40,312 bases of DNA from a virus, in IMG/VR virus record IMGVR_UViG_3300008110_000568, positions 1 to 40,312 of that record. One strand, given 5' to 3'. The notes under the pieces were generated by a model. It saw only the letters and a list, made by a program, of their open reading frames with translations, was not told the DNA's origin and did no database searches. Of the stretch, positions 3,835 through 35,685 are shown piece by piece. A program made the translations under genes and the position numbers. Each line of letters opens with the position of its first letter. The first letter of the stretch is position 1.

Positions 3835-4215
3835 ATGCGAGCCAACGAAATAATAAGAAATGTACTCAATCTATTAGACCAAATAGATTGTCAACAAAAT
3901 CAGCCAGCACAAATTGCTATTACAGGCCATATAGTTGCTGAACCGATGCAACTACCAGAAGTTCCTAGAGAAGAACCTGTTGGTCCCGAGATTGAATATG
4001 ACGACGAACATCGTCGTTTTAAGCAAATAATGGATATTCTAGCAACTAAAGATAGAAACACCATGTATAGCAACAGTCCTAACGAAATGATTTCAAATCC
4101 ATCTAGTGTTACTACTGATGCAGGTGGTGGATGGAATGGTCCAAAACACCCTAGCGATATACGAGCAGATTCTATTTCTATGTATCCTAATTATCAGTCA
4201 AAACCGGGGGTGTAA
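3835..4215 (+). CDS. Hypothetical virion-region protein
   Basis: This 126-residue protein is not recognised. The N-terminus (MRANEIIRNVLNLLDQID) looks helical. The middle is acidic and proline-rich, and the C-terminal half is polar with GGGWNGPKHPSDIRADSISMYPNY. The start codon lacks a Shine-Dalgarno and sits directly after a TAAATA late promoter core. Its place between tail genes suggests a virion or assembly protein expressed late. Confidence 0.6.
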   Translation: MRANEIIRNVLNLLDQIDCQQNQPAQIAITGHIVAEPMQLPEVPREEPVGPEIEYDDEHRRFKQIMDILATKDRNTMYSNSPNEMISNPSSVTTDAGGGWNGPKHPSDIRADSISMYPNYQSKPGV

Positions 4216-4656: not shown

Positions 4657-5964
4657 ATGGCTGTTGACCGTTATCAAAATAGCACTAATTATGTACATCC
4701 TCAGGAGAGCAATCTCTTAAATGTTCATAAGGCTATGGACTATAGTGCGGCAGGTGAGCCACTATTACGAGTAAACAATGTAGGTGGAGTCAGTTACAAC
4801 GATGCCGGCAACATATCGGCCAGTATGGATGCGTTTGGCCGTATGCGAGTCAGAAATCCGTTTACCCTGTTCGATGGTGCCCTACGCTATAGAGATGATG
4901 AGTTTAGATGGAATCAAGTAGATACTGGAGCAGGCACAAGTGTATTCCTGCCTAATGAAAGCACCATGTTGATGACAGTGTCAAGCAACGGTGATTCAGC
5001 AGTGAGACAAAGCAAGCAGGTGTTTAGTTATCAGCCTGGCAAGAGTTTGTTGACTATGGCCACTTTTGTTATGAACACCCCCACTGCGGGCCTGCGTCAG
5101 CGTGTGGGATACTTTGGCGCACAAAACGGCATATACTTCGAAGTAGACGGCACTGACATCAATCTTGTGATTAGAAAATACACTAGCGGCACAGTGGACG
5201 ACACTACAGAAAAAATCAGCAGGTCTGCATGGAACGGCGATAGAATGGATGGTCAAGGTGGTCAACACAACATCAGCGGTGTTACTTTAGATGTGACTAA
5301 ATCGCATATCTTTTGGTGCGACGGGTTTGTTATCAACGGACAGTTTATTGTTTGTCATATATTCCATCATGCAAATATATTCAACAAAGTTTATATGACC
5401 ACTGCGTCATTGCCAGTTAGATACGAACTAACCAGCACAGGTGCCACAGGTACTATGCGAGCCATATGTAGCACAGTGATATCAGAAGGTGGCTACAGCA
5501 ATCGCAGTCAGAGTAGGGCAATAGGTACAAGTCTTACTGGAAAGAATCTTACTACAACTGTCTATCGCCCGTTAGTTTGTATTAGACTAAAGTCAGCCAA
5601 CATAGACAGCATTGTGGTGCCAACCAAGTTTGACCTCTACGGGTTACAACTGGCAGCGTTTAGTTATCGAGTAATCTTAAATCCCACACTGACCGATGCC
5701 AACTGGACTTCAGCAGGCGACAACAGTTCAGTAGAGTATGATCTATCAGCTACAGCATTGACTGGCGGCACAGTTATTGATCAAGGCGTTTTTGTAGGAA
5801 CCAACAAAGGCGGCTCAACCAGTGTGAGCGGCAGTGATGTAGATTTCAGCAATCAACTGGGACGCACTATAGCAGGAGTAAGTGACATATGGTGTTTGGC
5901 CGCTATTGCCACAACTAACAACGATGATGCCGTAGCTTCAGTATCTTGGCAGGAGCACGGATAA
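4657..5964 (+). CDS. Conserved phage structural protein
   Basis: This 435-residue protein starts 3 nt after the upstream stop. It contains motifs I associate with a structural protein of aquatic T4-like phages: MDYSAAGEPLLRVNNVGG, FGRMRVRNPFTLFD, and GLRQRVGYFGAQNGIYFEVDG. It appears beta-rich with no transmembrane segments. Codon use is slightly more GC-rich than in the preceding genes, as might suit an abundant product. The exact virion location (tail, fibre or decoration) cannot be set from sequence alone. Confidence 0.65.
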   Translation: MAVDRYQNSTNYVHPQESNLLNVHKAMDYSAAGEPLLRVNNVGGVSYNDAGNISASMDAFGRMRVRNPFTLFDGALRYRDDEFRWNQVDTGAGTSVFLPNESTMLMTVSSNGDSAVRQSKQVFSYQPGKSLLTMATFVMNTPTAGLRQRVGYFGAQNGIYFEVDGTDINLVIRKYTSGTVDDTTEKISRSAWNGDRMDGQGGQHNISGVTLDVTKSHIFWCDGFVINGQFIVCHIFHHANIFNKVYMTTASLPVRYELTSTGATGTMRAICSTVISEGGYSNRSQSRAIGTSLTGKNLTTTVYRPLVCIRLKSANIDSIVVPTKFDLYGLQLAAFSYRVILNPTLTDANWTSAGDNSSVEYDLSATALTGGTVIDQGVFVGTNKGGSTSVSGSDVDFSNQLGRTIAGVSDIWCLAAIATTNNDDAVASVSWQEHG

Positions 5965-6499: not shown

Positions 6500-9400
6500 A
6501 TGAAACAGACCAAAATTGCAATTATTGATGTTATCGGCTTACCCTACGATGGCACCACATTATACAAAAAGGGTATAGGCGGAAGCGAAAGCAGTATCAT
6601 AAGTGTGGCTAGAGAACTAGTACAACTTGGATTTTCCGTTACAATTTTTAATGATAATAACAAAGAAGGCGCTAGCGAAGGCACATACGACGGTGTTGAA
6701 TATTGTGAAATTCGCCGACTTGCTGAAAGAGAATTTAACTTTGATATTGTTATTAGTCAACGTACTGTAGTTCCTTTTACTCCTCCTCATCTGTATGAAC
6801 AGGTTAAACAGCCTGCTCCTAGAGATCACAATGTAAGTTTATTCCGCCAGGTACAACGTCCCGGGCAATTAAAAATACTTTGGTTGCAAGACACGTTCTG
6901 TTGGGGCGATCATATTCTTGAAGAATTGGTCGTTAAGGGTTATATTAATGAACTGTTTACGTTAAGTGATTGGCATACTGCCTACACTACACATAGCATT
7001 CATGGTCCAAGAAGAAACGTTGAAGTTCTTAAGCGACATATTTTCCAGACTAGAAATGCAATGAATCGTTGGATCCCCTGGGTTGATATCAAGGCTAAAG
7101 ATCCTAACATGTTTGTTTACAATGCATCAGTTACCAAGGGTATGGTGCCATTGCTAGATTATATATGGCCTAGAATTAAAGGTCAGTTGCCCCAGGCCAA
7201 ACTTACTATTGTAGGCGGATACTATCAATTCCCCAACGAGCCATTAAATGATCAGGGCAAACAGTTGATGGAATTTCAACAACGTTACAAAGACGATCCT
7301 ACTGTAATTTTTACAGGTATTATTACACAACCAGAAATTGCTAAAATTGTTGCTAATGCAAGTTACATGATCTATCCTGGGGCATTTCCAGAAACATCTG
7401 GTATTGCTACGTTAGAAGCAATTAACTATAACACTCCTGTGCTAGGAACACGATTTGGCGCTATGGAAGAAACTGCTACAGAAGCGGCAAGTTATATGAT
7501 TGACTATGCTGTAGTACCCAATGGCCTGTTTCCTAATATTGATCCTAATAAACAAGCAGATAAATTTATTAATATGGTGCTACGTGCAGTGCATAATCCA
7601 TATCTGCATCAACAAAAGCAATATGCTTGTAACGCAGTTAAAGATGTAAGCACGTGGGATACTGTGGCGTTACAATGGAAACAACATTTCTACAATAAAC
7701 TTAATTTAGAAATGGATCCCGCAGAACTTGCTCGCGTTCAATGGATTAACTATCGAGTACATAAGGTATTTGGTCGCAGGATAATGAATCCTGAAGAAGT
7801 AATTGTACCCGAAATAACAGTACCAACTTACAAAGAATCCAATAAGGTGAGTCTAGCTATTGTAGACATTCCTGGAATGAGTTATGATGGTGGCACATTA
7901 GACCGTCGAGGTCTTGGTGGTAGTGAAAGTGCAGTTATTCTTGTTGCTAAAGAATTATCTCAACTAGGATTTAATGTTACAGTATTCAACGGCTGTAACG
8001 AAGATGACAGCACACCCGGAGTATATGAGGGTGTAACATACAGACCTATAAGTGATATTGAACACGATAACGCTACATATGATGTGGTAATCAGCTCAAG
8101 AACCATTATGCCGTTTGTCACTGAAGAATTTTACAGTCTTGCAATCAATACAGCACGTCAATATCCGTATGACATGTTTAAACGATTAAGAGAAAATGCA
8201 AAATTTAAAGTGTTCTGGATGCATGATACTTTCAGTTGGGGTGATGATACAATTGAAGACTTAATCACTACTGGTGCTGTTGATGAAATATGGTGTTTGA
8301 GTGATTTTCATACCATGTATGTAATGAATTGTAATCACGGTAGAATGCGTAATTACGAAGTGTTGCGTAACCATATGTGGATTACAAGAAATGGCTTAAG
8401 ACGTTATTTTGACAAGGTTGATCTAGATAAGAAAGATCCTAACTTGTTCTTCTTCAATGCTAATATGAGCAAAGGCTTAAGAACACTGCTACATGGTATT
8501 TGGCCTAGACTTAAAAAACAAATTCCAAAAGCTAGACTTAAAGTTATTGGTGGCTACTATAAATTAGGAGCGGCTTTTAATGAAGAACATGATCAAGAAC
8601 GTAGCTTTAGAGAACTAGTAGGAGATGCAATTAATGATCCTAGTATTGAATTTACTGGAGTTATTAGTCAACAGAGAGTTTCTGAAATTGCGGCAGAATC
8701 TACTTACTTCCTATATCCAGCCGAGTTACCAGAGACTTATGGTATAAGCTGTTTAGAAAGTCTATATGCTAATACTCCGTTGCTTACCTGTCGATTTGGT
8801 GCTTTGGAAGAAACTGCAACTGAACATAGTTATATGATAGACTATGCTATTACTCCAAACGGATTATATCCCCATATTGATCCTAATAAACAAGCAGATG
8901 CATTTGTAAAAATGGTAGTTGATGCTTATAAAGATCCTAAAGAACTTCGTAAGCGACAAATTGCTCTCGATGATATAAAAGATCTTGTAGGATGGGATGT
9001 AACAGCACTACAGTGGAAACATCACCTGTACAGTAAACTAGGTCTGTATGTACAACGAGGCGAATTCCAACGTAGTAATTATTTTGCAGCCAAATACAAC
9101 AAAATTTTTGGAAGAAGAACAACTGGTCCCGAATTATGGACATGCCCAAAAATTAATCCAGAACGTCCTATTGCTATAATAAGTCCTTTCTGGAATGCGG
9201 CTCCTTATATTGCAAAATGTATTGAGAGTGTTGCGGCACAGGATTATGACAATTATGTTCATTACCTTATAGACGATTGTTCTAGTGATGATGGTTTTAG
9301 TGTAGCATTAACTGAAATTAATAAATTACCAGAAAATCTACGCAAAAAGTTTGTGCTGATTAAAAATCACACACGTAATGGTAGTGCAGTTGCCAATCAG

Positions 9401-10597
9401 ATTACTACCATTAAACAACAGAATTTTTCCGACGATACAATTATTATGTTGTTAGACGGCGATGACTGTCTTACTAATAGAAACGATACTTTTACCTACT
9501 ATAACGAGTTGCACGAAGATGCTGACTTTGTCTATGGGAGTTGCTGGAGTGTAATTGATAACATTCCGTTAATCAGTCAACCATATCCTCCTGAAATAAA
9601 AGAAGCAGGTGATTATAGAAATTATAAATTTAATTGGAACATGCCTTATACTCATTTAAGGACGTATAAAGCATTCCTTATTAAAGATATACCCGAAGAA
9701 GCATTTAAAGATGAAAATGGAAATTGGTTTAAGGCCGGCGGTGATAACTCAACGTTCTATCTTCCTTTAGAAAATTGTGACCCTGATAGAATTTTTGTCA
9801 ATGCCGACATTATCTATAACTACAATGATGCTAGTCCGTTAAATGATTACAAAGTAAACGGAACAGAACAAAATGTAACAGCAAATAAAATTTTAACAAA
9901 GAAAATGAAACCATTCCAAAATATACCAGATAGAAAAAAGACACAACCAAGTAAACTTGATTTGTCTGTAATGGAACCAGCGCCTCCAGTTGGTCCTAAA
10001 AAACATATTCTTATTGCTATTCCTGCAAAAAATTTAATTGAAGCAGAAACATTTAAGAGTATCTATGATTTAGAAGTTCCAGATGGATATGAAACACATT
10101 TCCAATACTTTTATGGATACCAAGTCGAACAGGTTCGTAATCTAATTGCTGACTGGATGATAAAAGGCCCGTATGATTATCTTTTTGCAGTTGATGCCGA
10201 CATTGCATTTCCAAGAGATACTCTTAAGAAAATGTTAAATCACAATAAAGATATGGTCACTGGATTATACATTCAACGTATTCCAGGAAAGCACTGTATT
10301 GAAGTTATGAAGTCAAATAATTTGGGAGGAGTAACCCATGTACCTTGGGCAGAATTAAAAGGAAAAGGTCTTGTAAAAGTTGATAGCGCAGGATTTGGAT
10401 GTTGCCTTATTAAAAAATATGTTTTCACAGGTATAGAATATCCACATTTTATCTACAAGAGTGCATTAGATCACGCTAACACTATTAGTGAAGATGTATA
10501 TTTCTTCCTTAAGGCAAAAGAAAAAGGATTTGAAATTTGGGCAGACACTTCTATCCTTTGTGATCATATAGGATCTTGGACATTTAGAGTAGAATAA
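6500..10597 (+). CDS. Giant multi-domain glycosyltransferase (two GT4-like, two GT2-like modules)
   Basis: This 1365-residue protein has four glycosyltransferase modules in tandem. Residues ~5-430 and ~450-875 are diverged copies of one GT-B (GT4-like) domain. Each begins with a hydrophobic strand, YDG.TL and a GGSES motif, and each has the donor-site E-x7-E signature (FPETSGIATLEA; LPETYGISCLES) followed by FGA.EETATE. From ~888 a GT-A (GT2) domain begins (IISPFWNAAPYIAKCIESVA) with a DDCSSDDG motif and a DGDD metal site near residue 986. From ~1167 a second GT-A-like domain has VDADIAFP near residue 1230. It could build a glycan on virion proteins, DNA or host surface. The stop overlaps the next start (TAATG). 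Confidence 0.85.
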   Translation: MKQTKIAIIDVIGLPYDGTTLYKKGIGGSESSIISVARELVQLGFSVTIFNDNNKEGASEGTYDGVEYCEIRRLAEREFNFDIVISQRTVVPFTPPHLYEQVKQPAPRDHNVSLFRQVQRPGQLKILWLQDTFCWGDHILEELVVKGYINELFTLSDWHTAYTTHSIHGPRRNVEVLKRHIFQTRNAMNRWIPWVDIKAKDPNMFVYNASVTKGMVPLLDYIWPRIKGQLPQAKLTIVGGYYQFPNEPLNDQGKQLMEFQQRYKDDPTVIFTGIITQPEIAKIVANASYMIYPGAFPETSGIATLEAINYNTPVLGTRFGAMEETATEAASYMIDYAVVPNGLFPNIDPNKQADKFINMVLRAVHNPYLHQQKQYACNAVKDVSTWDTVALQWKQHFYNKLNLEMDPAELARVQWINYRVHKVFGRRIMNPEEVIVPEITVPTYKESNKVSLAIVDIPGMSYDGGTLDRRGLGGSESAVILVAKELSQLGFNVTVFNGCNEDDSTPGVYEGVTYRPISDIEHDNATYDVVISSRTIMPFVTEEFYSLAINTARQYPYDMFKRLRENAKFKVFWMHDTFSWGDDTIEDLITTGAVDEIWCLSDFHTMYVMNCNHGRMRNYEVLRNHMWITRNGLRRYFDKVDLDKKDPNLFFFNANMSKGLRTLLHGIWPRLKKQIPKARLKVIGGYYKLGAAFNEEHDQERSFRELVGDAINDPSIEFTGVISQQRVSEIAAESTYFLYPAELPETYGISCLESLYANTPLLTCRFGALEETATEHSYMIDYAITPNGLYPHIDPNKQADAFVKMVVDAYKDPKELRKRQIALDDIKDLVGWDVTALQWKHHLYSKLGLYVQRGEFQRSNYFAAKYNKIFGRRTTGPELWTCPKINPERPIAIISPFWNAAPYIAKCIESVAAQDYDNYVHYLIDDCSSDDGFSVALTEINKLPENLRKKFVLIKNHTRNGSAVANQITTIKQQNFSDDTIIMLLDGDDCLTNRNDTFTYYNELHEDADFVYGSCWSVIDNIPLISQPYPPEIKEAGDYRNYKFNWNMPYTHLRTYKAFLIKDIPEEAFKDENGNWFKAGGDNSTFYLPLENCDPDRIFVNADIIYNYNDASPLNDYKVNGTEQNVTANKILTKKMKPFQNIPDRKKTQPSKLDLSVMEPAPPVGPKKHILIAIPAKNLIEAETFKSIYDLEVPDGYETHFQYFYGYQVEQVRNLIADWMIKGPYDYLFAVDADIAFPRDTLKKMLNHNKDMVTGLYIQRIPGKHCIEVMKSNNLGGVTHVPWAELKGKGLVKVDSAGFGCCLIKKYVFTGIEYPHFIYKSALDHANTISEDVYFFLKAKEKGFEIWADTSILCDHIGSWTFRVE

Positions 10598-31263: not shown

Positions 31264-31794
31264 ATGGCAAAACATTTAATGATCGACATGGAGACTATGG
31301 CTGTCTCCCCAAGCGCAGTTGTCCTTTCTTTGGGCGCTGTACATTTTAATCCCTACGGCAATGGATACGGAGATAAAATTTATTTCCGTATTGACCTTGA
31401 CGATCAAGATAAGTTGGGTAGAGAAATTGATCCCAATACTCTAGAATGGTGGGCTAAACAAGATCCTGCTATTATGGAAGAAGCATTTAGCCCGGACAAT
31501 CGTGTTCCTCTAGCAGATGCAATGGATCAGTTCCATAAGTTTGCTTGGGGATGTGATGCATTTTGGTCACATGGCGCAACTTTTGACCTAGTTATTATCG
31601 AGAACATTTACAGACAATTAAATAAACCACTTCCGTGGAGTTATTGGCAATTGCGTGATACTCGCACTATCTTTGATCTAGGATATGATCCAGATATGCC
31701 TCAAGGCGGGAAGCACGATGCCCTGCAGGATGCTATTCGGCAGGCAGTAGGTGTTCAAAACATCTACTCTAAACTTAAAATTAGACCGAGATGA
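31264..31794 (+). CDS. DEDDh 3'-5' exonuclease-like protein
   Basis: This 176-residue protein has the DEDDh exonuclease pattern: MIDMETM (D8, E10), WSHGATFDLVIIE (D108) and GGKHDALQDAIRQ (H151, D156). RDTRTIFDLG sits between them. It resembles the Rv2179c/DUF5051-type and T4 DexA-like phage exonucleases. It should remove nucleotides from 3' ends of DNA or RNA. The promoter upstream has a -10 box 5 nt before the ATG and no Shine-Dalgarno. The stop overlaps the next start (ATGA). Confidence 0.8.
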   Translation: MAKHLMIDMETMAVSPSAVVLSLGAVHFNPYGNGYGDKIYFRIDLDDQDKLGREIDPNTLEWWAKQDPAIMEEAFSPDNRVPLADAMDQFHKFAWGCDAFWSHGATFDLVIIENIYRQLNKPLPWSYWQLRDTRTIFDLGYDPDMPQGGKHDALQDAIRQAVGVQNIYSKLKIRPR

Positions 31795-32558
31795 AACCTT
31801 TTGAAAAATTATTTTTTGATAGTGCAGTTGGATTAGGCGATGCATTTGTAATGAATGGCATTGTCCATCATTATGGTAGACTTTGCACTACCCTTTATTA
31901 TCCTGCTCGTGCAGAGTTTTTTGATACGTTGACGTACCTATATAAAGATTATCCAAATATCGAAGTTTGGCGATTTTACGACAACGAACAAGAAGATTTC
32001 TTTGTAGAAAACAACAAGTTACTACGTGTAAGAAGCACACCGCTTATTACAAGTGAAATACATCGAGTTGGTTGTGAACCGGAACGGATTCATGTACACT
32101 GGCCACAACAAATATATGATAACTTTGATATCCCATTTAAAATGAGATATTTAGATTTTCATATGCCCGATCATGTTGAGGGGTCTGAAGAATTGTACCA
32201 GCAACTCACTGGAGGCGAAACTGATTATGTTCTAGTACATAGATATGCTAGCGATCGTCCAGATGGCATTCATTTTGAATTAGATGCCTTAAGAAAAGCC
32301 AAAGGACTTCCGGACAGAAAAATTATTGAAATCCGTGAAGGGCAGACTAAAAATATGTTACAATATAAGACGTTAATAGAAAGAGCTAGTGAAATACATT
32401 GTATTCCTAGTAGCTTCTTTAATTTTGTAGACAGTTTAATAACCAAAATTAATGCAACGTGTTTCTTTCACGATATACGGAAAAATTCGTTAATGAAAGT
32501 TAACAGTCGATGGAACGATCATAAGTGGAATGTAGTAACTTATGGAATACGGTTATAA
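31791..32558 (+). CDS. GT-B/GT9-like protein, paralogue of the 30479 gene
   Basis: This 255-residue protein begins with FDSAVGLGDAFVMNGIVHHY, the same GxGD plus VHHY opening as the 30479 protein. It continues with RVGCEPERIHVHWPQQIYD and ends in ERASEIHCIPSSFFNFVDSL, parallel to the CSRLITIDTS region of the paralogue. Both look like shortened GT-B sugar-nucleotide-binding proteins. It is coupled by 4 nt to the DEDD exonuclease. No gene follows for 565 nt. Confidence 0.5.
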   Translation: MKPFEKLFFDSAVGLGDAFVMNGIVHHYGRLCTTLYYPARAEFFDTLTYLYKDYPNIEVWRFYDNEQEDFFVENNKLLRVRSTPLITSEIHRVGCEPERIHVHWPQQIYDNFDIPFKMRYLDFHMPDHVEGSEELYQQLTGGETDYVLVHRYASDRPDGIHFELDALRKAKGLPDRKIIEIREGQTKNMLQYKTLIERASEIHCIPSSFFNFVDSLITKINATCFFHDIRKNSLMKVNSRWNDHKWNVVTYGIRL

Positions 32559-32596
32559 ATTGTTAGTTTTTTGGCTATTTTAGTACCATATAATTG

Positions 32597-32625
32597 TTGA
32601 CAAGATAATTAAATGACACTATAAT
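32597..32625 (+). promoter_or_regulatory. Consensus sigma-70 promoter for the noncoding RNA region
   Basis: TTGACA, a 17-nt spacer and TATAAT form a perfect consensus promoter. Transcription would start near 32632, about 490 nt before the next protein gene. Confidence 0.85.
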
Positions 32626-32654
32626 AATAACATAGAAAGCAAATTGTAAGGTTA

Positions 32655-32730
32655 GGTACAGCAATATTCATAATACTATGAATCGTTAGACCCTATGGTA
32701 GTTCGCTGGAGCGAAGCAGGTAACACTGTC
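32655..32730 (+). repeat. RNA module copy A
   Basis: TAGG-TACAGCAAT (TACAGCAAT at 32657-32665) is followed by a hairpin and then GCAGGTAACACTG starting at 32716. Offset from motif to GCAG is 59 nt. Confidence 0.55.
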
Positions 32731-32831
32731 TAGCATTGAAGGTGGCTATTGAAATAGACTAACAAGCTCAGAGTGATGGCCTGAGTAAAATAAAAGCAGT
32801 CAACAACTAGCCTGTTGAAGTATTCTAGGAT

Positions 32832-32910
32832 GGATACAGCAATTTTTAACATTAAAGACGCACTTGATGCAGTAGACGGTGACCCGCAAGGTTGCAGTAG
32901 GTAAGACAGA
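32832..32910 (+). repeat. RNA module copy B
   Basis: GGATACAGCAAT (TACAGCAAT at 32835-32843) is followed by ACC-cgcaa-GGT and then GCAGTAGGTAAGACAG starting at 32894. The offset is again 59 nt, as in copy A, although the intervening bases have diverged. Confidence 0.55.
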
Positions 32911-33061
32911 AATGTTTAAGCCTACACGCTAACGGAACTGACGACATGATGGAAAGACATCTATGTTATCTAACGCAGAATAAGTTAGGTTATGCTTGCG
33001 GAACTGAACCAATATACTGGGGATGGGGGTAAGCAGAAAATAAAAATCCGTTCCACCCATC

Positions 33062-33095
33062 CTGTTGTTTATAAGGTTATAGACAGCATTTTTTT
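33062..33095 (+). terminator. Possible terminator of the noncoding RNA
   Basis: CTGT pairs with ACAG around an inner TATA/TATA stem, followed by seven T. The stem is weak, so read-through into the DUF2828 gene is likely. Confidence 0.35.
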
Positions 33096-33123
33096 ATAAA
33101 TGTAACCTGAAAGGAAAAAGAGA

Positions 33124-34521
33124 ATGAACTCTTTCGTTGAAGCAGTCTCCACTGTACAAATGGAAACTCGTACCGAAAACGGTATGAAGACTTTTGATTC
33201 TAGCAAGAACTCTCTTGTGGACTTGTTCTTCACTATTGGTGCAAGCCGTGGTAAGGATCTTTCAAAGCAATTTATCACTGCCCTGAAGCAGGACGAAACT
33301 CTGGCTCTACGTCTATTGATGTGGGCTCGTGACGTTCGAGGCGGAGCGGGCGAACGTGATGTTGTGCGTACTATTTTGTTGGCCCTTGAAAAGAACTATC
33401 CAGAAGCCCTGGATCGTATCTTGCCACACTTGGCAGAATTCGGTCGTTGGGATGACTTGCTCATCTTCAAGACCAAGGATGTAAAGGCCAAGGCCTTTAC
33501 CCTAATCGGTAACGCTCTTCGTGAACGTAACGGTTTGGCGGCCAAGTGGATGCCTCGTCAAGGTCCACTTGCGGTAGAAATCCGCACCTTCTTCGGTATG
33601 AGCCCAAAGTTCTACCGTAAGAGCCTTGTTGAAATGAGCAAGACTGTTGAACAGAACATGTGTGCAAACACTTGGGACGAAATCAACTACAGCCACGTAC
33701 CATCGTTGGCGGCTGCTCGTTACCAAAAGGCTTTCAAGAAGCACGATCCAGTTGGATACGAAGCCTACAAGGCCAAGTTGACTACTGGTGAAGCAAAGGT
33801 AAACGCTTCGGCTGTTTACCCATACGATGTAATCAAGAGCCGCAAGTTCGGTGGAGATGACAAGGTAATACAAGCCCAATGGGATGCATTGCCTAACTAC
33901 ATCGGCGACGAGTTGGTCCTACCAGTGTGTGACGTTAGTGGGTCCATGTCGACTCCAGTTGGCGGAAACGCTAACTTGACCTGCATGGATGTTTGCGTAA
34001 GCCTTGGCTTGTACTTGGCTGACAAGAACAAGGGACCGTTCAAGGACATGTTCCTAACTTTCTCTACCAAGAGCAAGTTGCAAGTCTTGAAGGGCAACCT
34101 GATTGACAAGCTGAACCAACTGCAAAGTGCAGATTGGGACATGAGCACTAACCTTCACAGCGCCTTCGAAGCAATTCTGGGCTACGCTGTTAAGGGTAAT
34201 GTTTCGGCAAACGACATGCCAAAGTACATCCTTGTGATGTCTGACATGCAGTTTAACCAATGTGCCAAGCACGATGACTCGGCTATGCAAATGATCGAAA
34301 GAAAGTTTGCAGAAGCAGGATACACTGTTCCAAACATTGTATTCTGGAACTTGAACGCCAAGGCGGATCAAGTGCCTGTTAAGTTTGACAAGAAGGGTGT
34401 TGCGCTAGTCTCCGGATTTAGCCCAGCAATCATGCAGTCAATCTTGGCGGCAGAGGATCTAGATCCTACATCAGTAATGATGCAGACTCTTAACAGTCCT
34501 CGTTACGCAGTAATTGCGTAA
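33124..34521 (+). CDS. DUF2828 protein: Ro60/TROVE-like helical region plus vWA domain
   Basis: This 465-residue protein matches DUF2828. Residues ~18-235 are helical repeat-like with NGMKTFDSSKNSLVDLFF, MWARDVRGGAGERD, LAEFGRWDDL and KWMPRQGP, similar in layout to the RNA-binding ring of TROVE/Ro60. From ~265 a von Willebrand A domain follows with the MIDAS motif DVSGSMS (D270, S272, S274), DWDMSTNLHSAF and VMSDMQFN. Ro60 proteins bind Y RNAs and misfolded RNAs. An AAAGGA ribosome binding site precedes the start. Codons are unusually C/G-ending (AAG, TTC, GAC) versus neighbours, suggesting high expression or transfer. It is preceded by a promoter-driven RNA and followed by a strong terminator. 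Confidence 0.85.
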   Translation: MNSFVEAVSTVQMETRTENGMKTFDSSKNSLVDLFFTIGASRGKDLSKQFITALKQDETLALRLLMWARDVRGGAGERDVVRTILLALEKNYPEALDRILPHLAEFGRWDDLLIFKTKDVKAKAFTLIGNALRERNGLAAKWMPRQGPLAVEIRTFFGMSPKFYRKSLVEMSKTVEQNMCANTWDEINYSHVPSLAAARYQKAFKKHDPVGYEAYKAKLTTGEAKVNASAVYPYDVIKSRKFGGDDKVIQAQWDALPNYIGDELVLPVCDVSGSMSTPVGGNANLTCMDVCVSLGLYLADKNKGPFKDMFLTFSTKSKLQVLKGNLIDKLNQLQSADWDMSTNLHSAFEAILGYAVKGNVSANDMPKYILVMSDMQFNQCAKHDDSAMQMIERKFAEAGYTVPNIVFWNLNAKADQVPVKFDKKGVALVSGFSPAIMQSILAAEDLDPTSVMMQTLNSPRYAVIA

Positions 34522-34529
34522 GTTGTGGG

Positions 34530-34562
34530 TAGGGCATGCCGTGAGGCATTGCCCTATTTTTT
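34530..34562 (+). terminator. Rho-independent terminator after the DUF2828 gene
   Basis: TAGGGCATGCC, a GTGA loop and GGCATTGCCCTA are followed by six T. Confidence 0.9.
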
Positions 34563-34818: not shown

Positions 34819-34847
34819 TTGACATACTGGTAAAAATATTGTATAAT
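34819..34847 (+). promoter_or_regulatory. Consensus sigma-70 promoter
   Basis: TTGACA, 17 nt and TATAAT match the consensus perfectly. It drives the metallophosphoesterase and probably the small-paralogue operon downstream. Confidence 0.85.
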
Positions 34848-34872: not shown

Positions 34873-35685
34873 ATGAACATTTCCCTCGTAAGTGATTTAC
34901 ATTTAGAATTTGGATATCAAGAACTGCCCGGCGGTGATGTTCTCATTCTTGCAGGTGATATTTGTGAAGCACGTACTCTTAAGAATGAATTTCACAAAAC
35001 CAAACTCTTGGACAGAGTGCCAGGTGCATTCAAATCCTACGACTTTTTCTACAGTGAATGTGCAAAGTATGACAAAGTGTTTTATGTTATGGGCAACCAC
35101 GAACACTATCACGGTCGCTTTGACAAGACCTATAACGAACTCAAAAGTATTCTTCCTGAAAACGTTACCTTACTTGAAAACGAAGTTGTTGAATATAATG
35201 GAGTTATGTTTTTAGGTGCTACATTATGGACTGACTTGAATAAGGGCGATCCTATTACTGTCTACACGATTAAAGGCTTTATGAACGACTACAAATGCGT
35301 TCAAAACTTTTATCCAGAAAAGAGTCTTTACCATAAATTGACTCCGGAGCATACTGCGGGTGTACATCGTAAGACTAAAGAATATTTTTCCAAGGTACTT
35401 ACTGAAAACAAAGATAAACCATTTGTTGTTGTTACACATATGGCTCCTAGTTTTCAAAGTGTAAACGAAAAGTTTATTCGTGAGACAACTACTAATGGCG
35501 GCTATGCCAGTTCTATGGACGAGTTTGTACTAGACCACGATAACATCAAAGTTTGGGTGCATGGTCACATGCACGATCCTGTAGACTATAAGATCGGTGA
35601 TACTCGTGTTCTTGCAAACCCTAGAGGTTATACTCCATGGGAAGACGGAAACGGGTTTGAACCTGGACTTTACTTTGAGGTTTAA
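34873..35685 (+). CDS. Calcineurin-like metallophosphoesterase
   Basis: This 270-residue protein carries the five metal-site motifs of the family in order: SDLHLEF (D8, H10), LAGDI (D29), GNHEHY (N75, H76), VVTHMAPS (H189) and VHGHMHDP (H232, H234). It should hydrolyse a phosphomonoester or phosphodiester, perhaps a nucleotide or nucleic acid end. The substrate cannot be told. It heads an operon with a perfect sigma-70 promoter, and its stop directly abuts the next start. Confidence 0.9.
   Translation: MNISLVSDLHLEFGYQELPGGDVLILAGDICEARTLKNEFHKTKLLDRVPGAFKSYDFFYSECAKYDKVFYVMGNHEHYHGRFDKTYNELKSILPENVTLLENEVVEYNGVMFLGATLWTDLNKGDPITVYTIKGFMNDYKCVQNFYPEKSLYHKLTPEHTAGVHRKTKEYFSKVLTENKDKPFVVVTHMAPSFQSVNEKFIRETTTNGGYASSMDEFVLDHDNIKVWVHGHMHDPVDYKIGDTRVLANPRGYTPWEDGNGFEPGLYFEV

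Follow-up and report, generated by a model that had tools for sequence, protein, structure and literature searches.

The region between positions 32597 and 34562 of a 40,312-nucleotide (nt) viral sequence, IMG/VR record IMGVR_UViG_3300008110_000568 (analyzed over its full length and referred to here as the window), contains a gene for a TROVE-like protein of the DUF2828/DUF7788 family, preceded by two promoter-driven structured RNAs that each carry the same helix and core, an element termed here the clamp. A short further copy of the clamp lies in the leader of the gene itself. The locus is read, with a probability of about two in three, as encoding a phage ribonucleoprotein (RNP) of the Ro60/Y RNA kind with an autoregulatory site in the leader. 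Sequence comparison shows that the protein family, the RNA element, the promoter, and the leader site evolve together.

The layout of the unit is given in Table 1. As claimed in the original prediction, the sigma-70 promoter is perfect, and the roughly 460 nt that follow it lack a long open reading frame (ORF), with none of 60 amino acids or more on the plus strand between 32558 and 33124. Forty of 42 related loci have a promoter that matches at least 10 of the 12 consensus positions no more than 75 nt 5′ of their first RNA, as against 2.7% of random windows. The stretch from 32632 to 33123 folds better than its shuffled versions (z = −3.71), none of 100 shuffles being as good. Comparison with 80 IMG/VR loci encoding the same DUF2828/DUF7788 protein revealed the clamp three times in tandem between the promoter and the DUF2828 gene. 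A single structured RNA had been proposed for this region; its structured nature was borne out and its number was not, there being two RNAs and a leader copy of the clamp. The second RNA, the leader copy, and the form of the clamp inserted in tRNA genes (see below) had all escaped the earlier reading.

The clamp is a covarying helix of 7–8 base pairs, AGRNNNN...NNNNYCU, with a G next to its 3′ end. Its 5′ arm leads straight into the conserved core NNCAGCAA, for which the pattern on the 5′ strand is NNC(A/N)GCAA. When RNA 1 was aligned across 27 loci, all 7 clamp pairs were retained in every one despite changes of letter, with one position varying between AU, UA, CG, and GC, and compensatory changes were seen in 20 of the 34 predicted pairs. 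RNA 2, aligned across 33 loci, shows such changes in 10 of 21 pairs, and its 3′ domain probably forms a pseudoknot (GGAAC/GTTCC). Covariation of this sort had been named beforehand as support for the RNA, and together with the conserved promoter it indicates that the upstream RNAs are real. Searches of region 32500–33200 against Rfam, up to an E value of 5, returned no family beyond chance-level matches; the candidates rejected in this way include Y RNA (RF00019), YrlA (RF02553), GOLLD, ROOL, and group I/II introns, among others. The RNAs of the window are outside the YrlA family, not being matched by its covariance model, and have no tRNA-like body, as had been noted from the sequence. A decayed gene was also rejected: the ATG at 32831 opens an ORF of 24 codons that runs over the clamp core, and this ORF is unconserved in the RNA 2 alignment. 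Clamp variants can escape the scan, which accepts only helices beginning with AG; a strict genome scan with the window's own motif gave zero matches in the window's record.

The leader copy was assessed in 73 distinct DUF2828 leaders without selecting for complementarity. The core stands at a fixed offset in 62 of these, and the exact complement of the leader's own 6-nt arm is present in 59 of the 62, compared with 1.3% when arms were swapped between leaders. Of 281 leaders that belong to other ORFs of these loci, none carries the element. As most leaders have the short third copy at their ribosome-binding site, the whole region could also be no more than a 5′ leader acting in cis on the DUF2828 mRNA, such as a riboswitch or attenuator, and the upstream RNAs would then lack a function of their own. 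This is very improbable, as the large RNAs can lie distant from the DUF2828 gene in tRNA arrays and are found 3′ of it in two loci, L025 and L028. In these two loci the leader copy remains in place, which argues that the RNAs are more than leaders.

At the sequence level, the product of the gene was assigned by Pfam to DUF7788 (1e-53) and DUF2828 (2.3e-30) only and not to the TROVE family, and a PDB sequence profile reached a TROVE chain marginally (E = 0.035). Its AlphaFold2 model (predicted local distance difference test score 80.4, predicted template modeling score 0.77) gave as best PDB fold matches a TROVE domain (9kop, E = 3.3e-9) and the Ro60 of Thermus phage phiLo (9l5y, E = 4.9e-9), with vWA domains ranked next. 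The motif of its metal ion-dependent adhesion site (MIDAS), D270-x-S272-x-S274, is invariant across 29 aligned homologues. A Ro60-like helical region and a vWA domain with MIDAS had been proposed from the letters of the gene, and both are upheld by these matches; the protein is predicted to be Ro60-like by fold, with the helical-repeat ring of TROVE proteins plus a vWA domain, and belongs to a separate sequence family. The phiLo Ro60 and phage TROVE or "Ro-like" proteins are its nearest solved structures by fold and share its phage origin, whereas identity to phiLo Ro60 is about 17% over the aligned part. In the open-access literature no paper was found that describes partner RNAs of phiLo Ro60 or that connects DUF2828 with an RNA, although phage Ro60 RNP work may exist elsewhere. 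The DUF2828 family is present in at least 682 phage records, including Felix-O1-type coliphages and phages of Listeria, Campylobacter, Staphylococcus, and Vibrio, where its members are mostly annotated as hypothetical or RNA-binding. DUF2828/DUF7788 proteins were also matched through BFVD in giant viruses (Pithovirus, Marseillevirus, and Cafeteria roenbergensis virus).

Co-occurrence of RNA and protein was measured in contigs of at least 30 kb chosen by pattern only. Those picked by the clamp pattern AGGATNNNTACAGCAA..ATCCTGTT encode PF25043 (DUF7788) in 25 of 39 cases, rising to 20 of 24 above 70 kb, and those picked by a second clamp pattern do so in 14 of 30, compared with 0 of 20 control contigs picked by a tRNA pattern. 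These counts are minimum values, as fragments are present in both the "phages" collection and IMG/VR. The first pattern has six matches in 85,000 bacterial and archaeal genomes, so the clamp is essentially viral. The association with DUF2828 that the original prediction had named as support is therefore present, and the counts indicate that the clamp travels with this protein family. Many short contigs below the 30-kb limit (L304, L313, L315, L319, L321, L322, and others) match an AGACC form of the clamp pattern with an identical 65-nt match span. RtcB was considered as a regular partner and rejected, being present in 1 of 34 records. In Listeria phage LP-124 (L200:5962-12530), a span of no more than 7 kb adjoining a tRNA array contains DUF2828 along with an RtcB-like ligase and an RNA ligase.

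Away from the DUF2828 leader, tRNA arrays carry the clamp as units of about 60 nt. Of 62 distinct units picked by pattern, 40 begin 4–15 nt past the 3′ end of a tRNA and 52 are no more than 100 nt from one; control scans of reversed sequences gave near zero matches. A coliphage of Felix-O1 size (about 89 kb) has five clamp copies 3′ of its DUF2828 gene, and leader copies at DUF2828 occur in Campylobacter and Listeria phages. In related phages, the clamp can enclose a circularly permuted tRNA body, consisting of a T arm, an acceptor closed by a short loop, and a D arm. Such bodies were found in 38 of 204 long clamp inserts, where 0.05 were expected from shuffles and 2.9 from random windows. Most of them cannot yield a tRNA, because the acceptor is closed by 2–12 nt and CCA is absent, and the closed acceptors also account for the near-blank result of ARAGORN on circularized inserts, for which the sole detection was the permuted tRNA of phage S13. 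One permuted body matches the Rfam YrlA model at 49.1 bits (E = 1.2e-10), and the best values among clamp RNAs of related phages were 49.1–49.9 bits (E = 1.2e-10 and 4.1e-11), counting only matches above about 40 bits inside a clamp. Whole-genome matches to this model were dropped as proof, since tandem tRNAs also produce weak ones. Phages S13 (L081:5154-5289) and Ci1 (L194:3249-3380) have tRNA genes in circularly permuted order enclosed by clamp arms, with intron-like tRNAs alongside; the permuted gene of S13 encodes CCA and has a 7-nt linker.

Hairpin inserts of 36–48 nt formed by the clamp also interrupt the anticodon arm of tRNAs that are canonical in other respects; these were found in phages S13, BUCT-ZZ01, APT65, Ci1, KVP40, nt-1, V07, F86, Ahp1, and Aeh1 and in the 735-kb record LR756501. 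The acceptor, D, and T arms of these tRNAs are intact. For 16 of the 23 distinct interrupted tRNAs, removal of the insert leaves a perfect 5-base pair anticodon stem and a loop of 7 nt that has U33 and a purine at position 37. The Asn, Met, and Glu genes have one or two excision solutions at or adjoining nt 29/30. Intact arms and restorable anticodons would both be explained if the clamp were a mini-intron or circularization element that is cut from tRNA genes with joining of the exons. Where the order is permuted, as it is in the window, the inner RNA would become a circle through splicing, and the splicing or repair work would fall to DUF2828 together with a phage RNA ligase. An Rnl2-type RNA ligase is indeed encoded by all T4-like phages that have clamp-interrupted tRNAs, LP-124 has its two ligases near DUF2828, and the CCA and linker of the S13 permuted tRNA fit such a scheme. 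However, 7 of the 23 genes yield no perfect solution, most permuted bodies could not become a tRNA, the leader and 60-nt copies contain nothing worth joining, and RNA ligases are common in such phages anyway, with APT65 having no PF09414 match. Splicing is thus an unlikely explanation of the clamp. It is equally doubtful that the inserts are an intron class of a new type, removed by DUF2828 and phage RNA ligases, in which case bacterial Y RNAs and the Ro60-RtcB operon would have branched off from a tRNA-splicing or repair system. BUCT-ZZ01 has nearly the same insert in two different tRNAs, as does S13, which might instead suggest a selfish repeat that settles near tRNAs and does nothing for the phage, but this is hardly credible given the compensatory changes, the tie to one protein family, the constant site before one gene, and the conserved promoter.

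Pseudo-tRNA forms in phages of the KVP40, phi-pp2, and Aeh1 kind are mentioned in PMC3468402 and PMC5107563. Several of the phage "tRNA-Pseudo" genes of KVP40, phi-pp2, and Aeh1 are tRNAs carrying a clamp insert (Table 1). Insert-bearing tRNAs with a long-standing pseudo annotation occur in KVP40, Aeh1, and S13. Neither the shared insert nor a link to DUF2828 is described in the open-access accounts of phage pseudo-tRNAs.

Under the preferred RNP reading, the DUF2828 protein would bind the clamp, and RNA 1 and RNA 2 would be its resident Y-like RNAs with exchangeable inner modules. These modules, which differ between the window (pseudoknotted) and its relatives (tRNA-like), may gate the protein or connect it to other factors. 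Free or excess protein would bind the leader clamp by the ribosome-binding site and limit its own translation, an autoregulation that would keep protein and RNA in balance. The task of the particle is likely to be the handling of phage or host tRNA during infection. A tRNA body with the clamp at its anticodon end exists in two orders, one permuted and ending at the clamp and the other normal and ending at the acceptor, and a common RNP role is favored because the two would look alike in three dimensions.

Several observations weigh against this reading. The template modeling scores of the protein model to Ro60 are modest (0.53–0.56), and about one-third of the contigs picked by the first clamp pattern have no DUF7788 match, although these are fragments. 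The leader search found no clamp in the leaders of S13, Ci1, and Ahp1, and none was found near DUF2828 of mycobacteriophage Gabriela and Pseudomonas phage Milchi. The YrlA matches are under the Rfam gathering score of 69 bits, tandem tRNAs alone score up to 38.7 bits on the same model and gave weak matches in 7 of 20 controls, and the terminal stem in Rfam's YrlA model differs in sequence from the clamp. Finally, clamp-bearing tRNAs have anticodon arms that look selected, a feature for which a pure RNP scaffold would have no need.

Table 1. Positions of the features discussed, in window coordinates unless another locus is named
Feature	Position	Strand	Details
Sigma-70 promoter of the RNA/DUF2828 unit	32597..32625	+	TTGACA-17-TATAAT; 12/12 to consensus; kept in 40/42 loci
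RNA 1	32649..32814	+	Clamp arms 32649-32655 (AGGTTAG) and 32807-32813 (CTAGCCT)+G; core TACAGCAA 32657-32664
RNA 2	32827..33064	+	Clamp arms 32827-32833 (AGGATGG) and 33057-33063 (CCATCCT)+G; core TACAGCAA 32835-32842
Leader clamp	33074..33109	+	AGGTTATA...GACAGCA...TGTAACCT-G; short third copy, directly upstream of ribosome-binding site
Ribosome-binding site	33110..33117	+	AAAGGAAA; read from sequence
DUF2828/DUF7788 protein gene	33124..34521	+	465 amino acids; helical TROVE-like part and vWA with MIDAS; Pfam, AlphaFold2, PDB fold matches
Terminator-like hairpin, 3′ of DUF2828 gene	34530..34562	+	TAGGGCATGCC-GTGA-GGCATTGCCCTA and T tract; read from sequence
KVP40 clamp-interrupted tRNAs	L190:3882-3994, 4005-4128, 5679-5794		Three annotated pseudo-tRNA
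Aeh1 clamp-interrupted tRNA region	L196:3060-3300		Annotated pseudo or odd anticodons

Just upstream of the RNA unit lies a gene for an Rv2179c-like 3′-5′ exoribonuclease (31264-31794), possibly tied to RNA handling. A second perfect sigma-70 promoter (34819-34847) stands ahead of a metallophosphoesterase gene (34873-35685), and positions 6500-10597 encode a 1365-amino acid protein with two stretches of the family-1/4 glycosyltransferase type and one family-2 glycosyltransferase domain.

Ro60 is an RNA-quality-control protein, and Ro60/TROVE proteins bind the stem of Y RNAs and the ends of misfolded RNAs. In bacteria, Ro60 homologues are encoded beside Y RNAs, as for YrlA with rsr, in loci of the rsr-yrlBA-rtcBA type. 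The phage system shares with Rsr/YrlA a gene for a Ro60-like protein beside RNAs with a terminal stem and, in the relatives, a permuted tRNA-like body beside that gene. It differs in that its protein belongs to DUF2828/DUF7788, its terminal stem has another conserved sequence, the RNAs of the window have no tRNA-like body, and there are many RNAs per phage, with the clamp also in an mRNA leader and inside tRNAs. The system most likely acts like bacterial Ro60 and Y RNA, with Rsr-YrlA as its nearest counterpart; the clamp inside tRNA genes may be an aspect that is new altogether. RNA C and RNA D of phage T4 are similar in being small stable RNAs of a phage tRNA cluster, and they were rejected as relatives, the T4 tRNA region having no clamp. 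T4 RNA C (L496:10909-11047) ends in a T-arm-like sequence (CCGGGTTCGAATCCCGG) and may be tRNA-like too, without a clamp.

The clamp offers DUF2828 proteins a concrete candidate RNA partner. Long-dismissed phage pseudo-tRNAs would gain a use, and reannotation of the clamp-interrupted tRNAs would alter tRNA counts in classic phages. An evolutionary bridge between tRNAs and the Y RNAs that mimic them would become testable in ordinary laboratory phages, as would, directly, the role of tRNA mimics in bacterial Ro60/Y RNPs. The recurrence of the clamp in tRNA-mimicking RNAs, in interrupted tRNAs, and in the leader of its own protein gene points to an overlooked, tRNA-linked phage RNA-protein machine.
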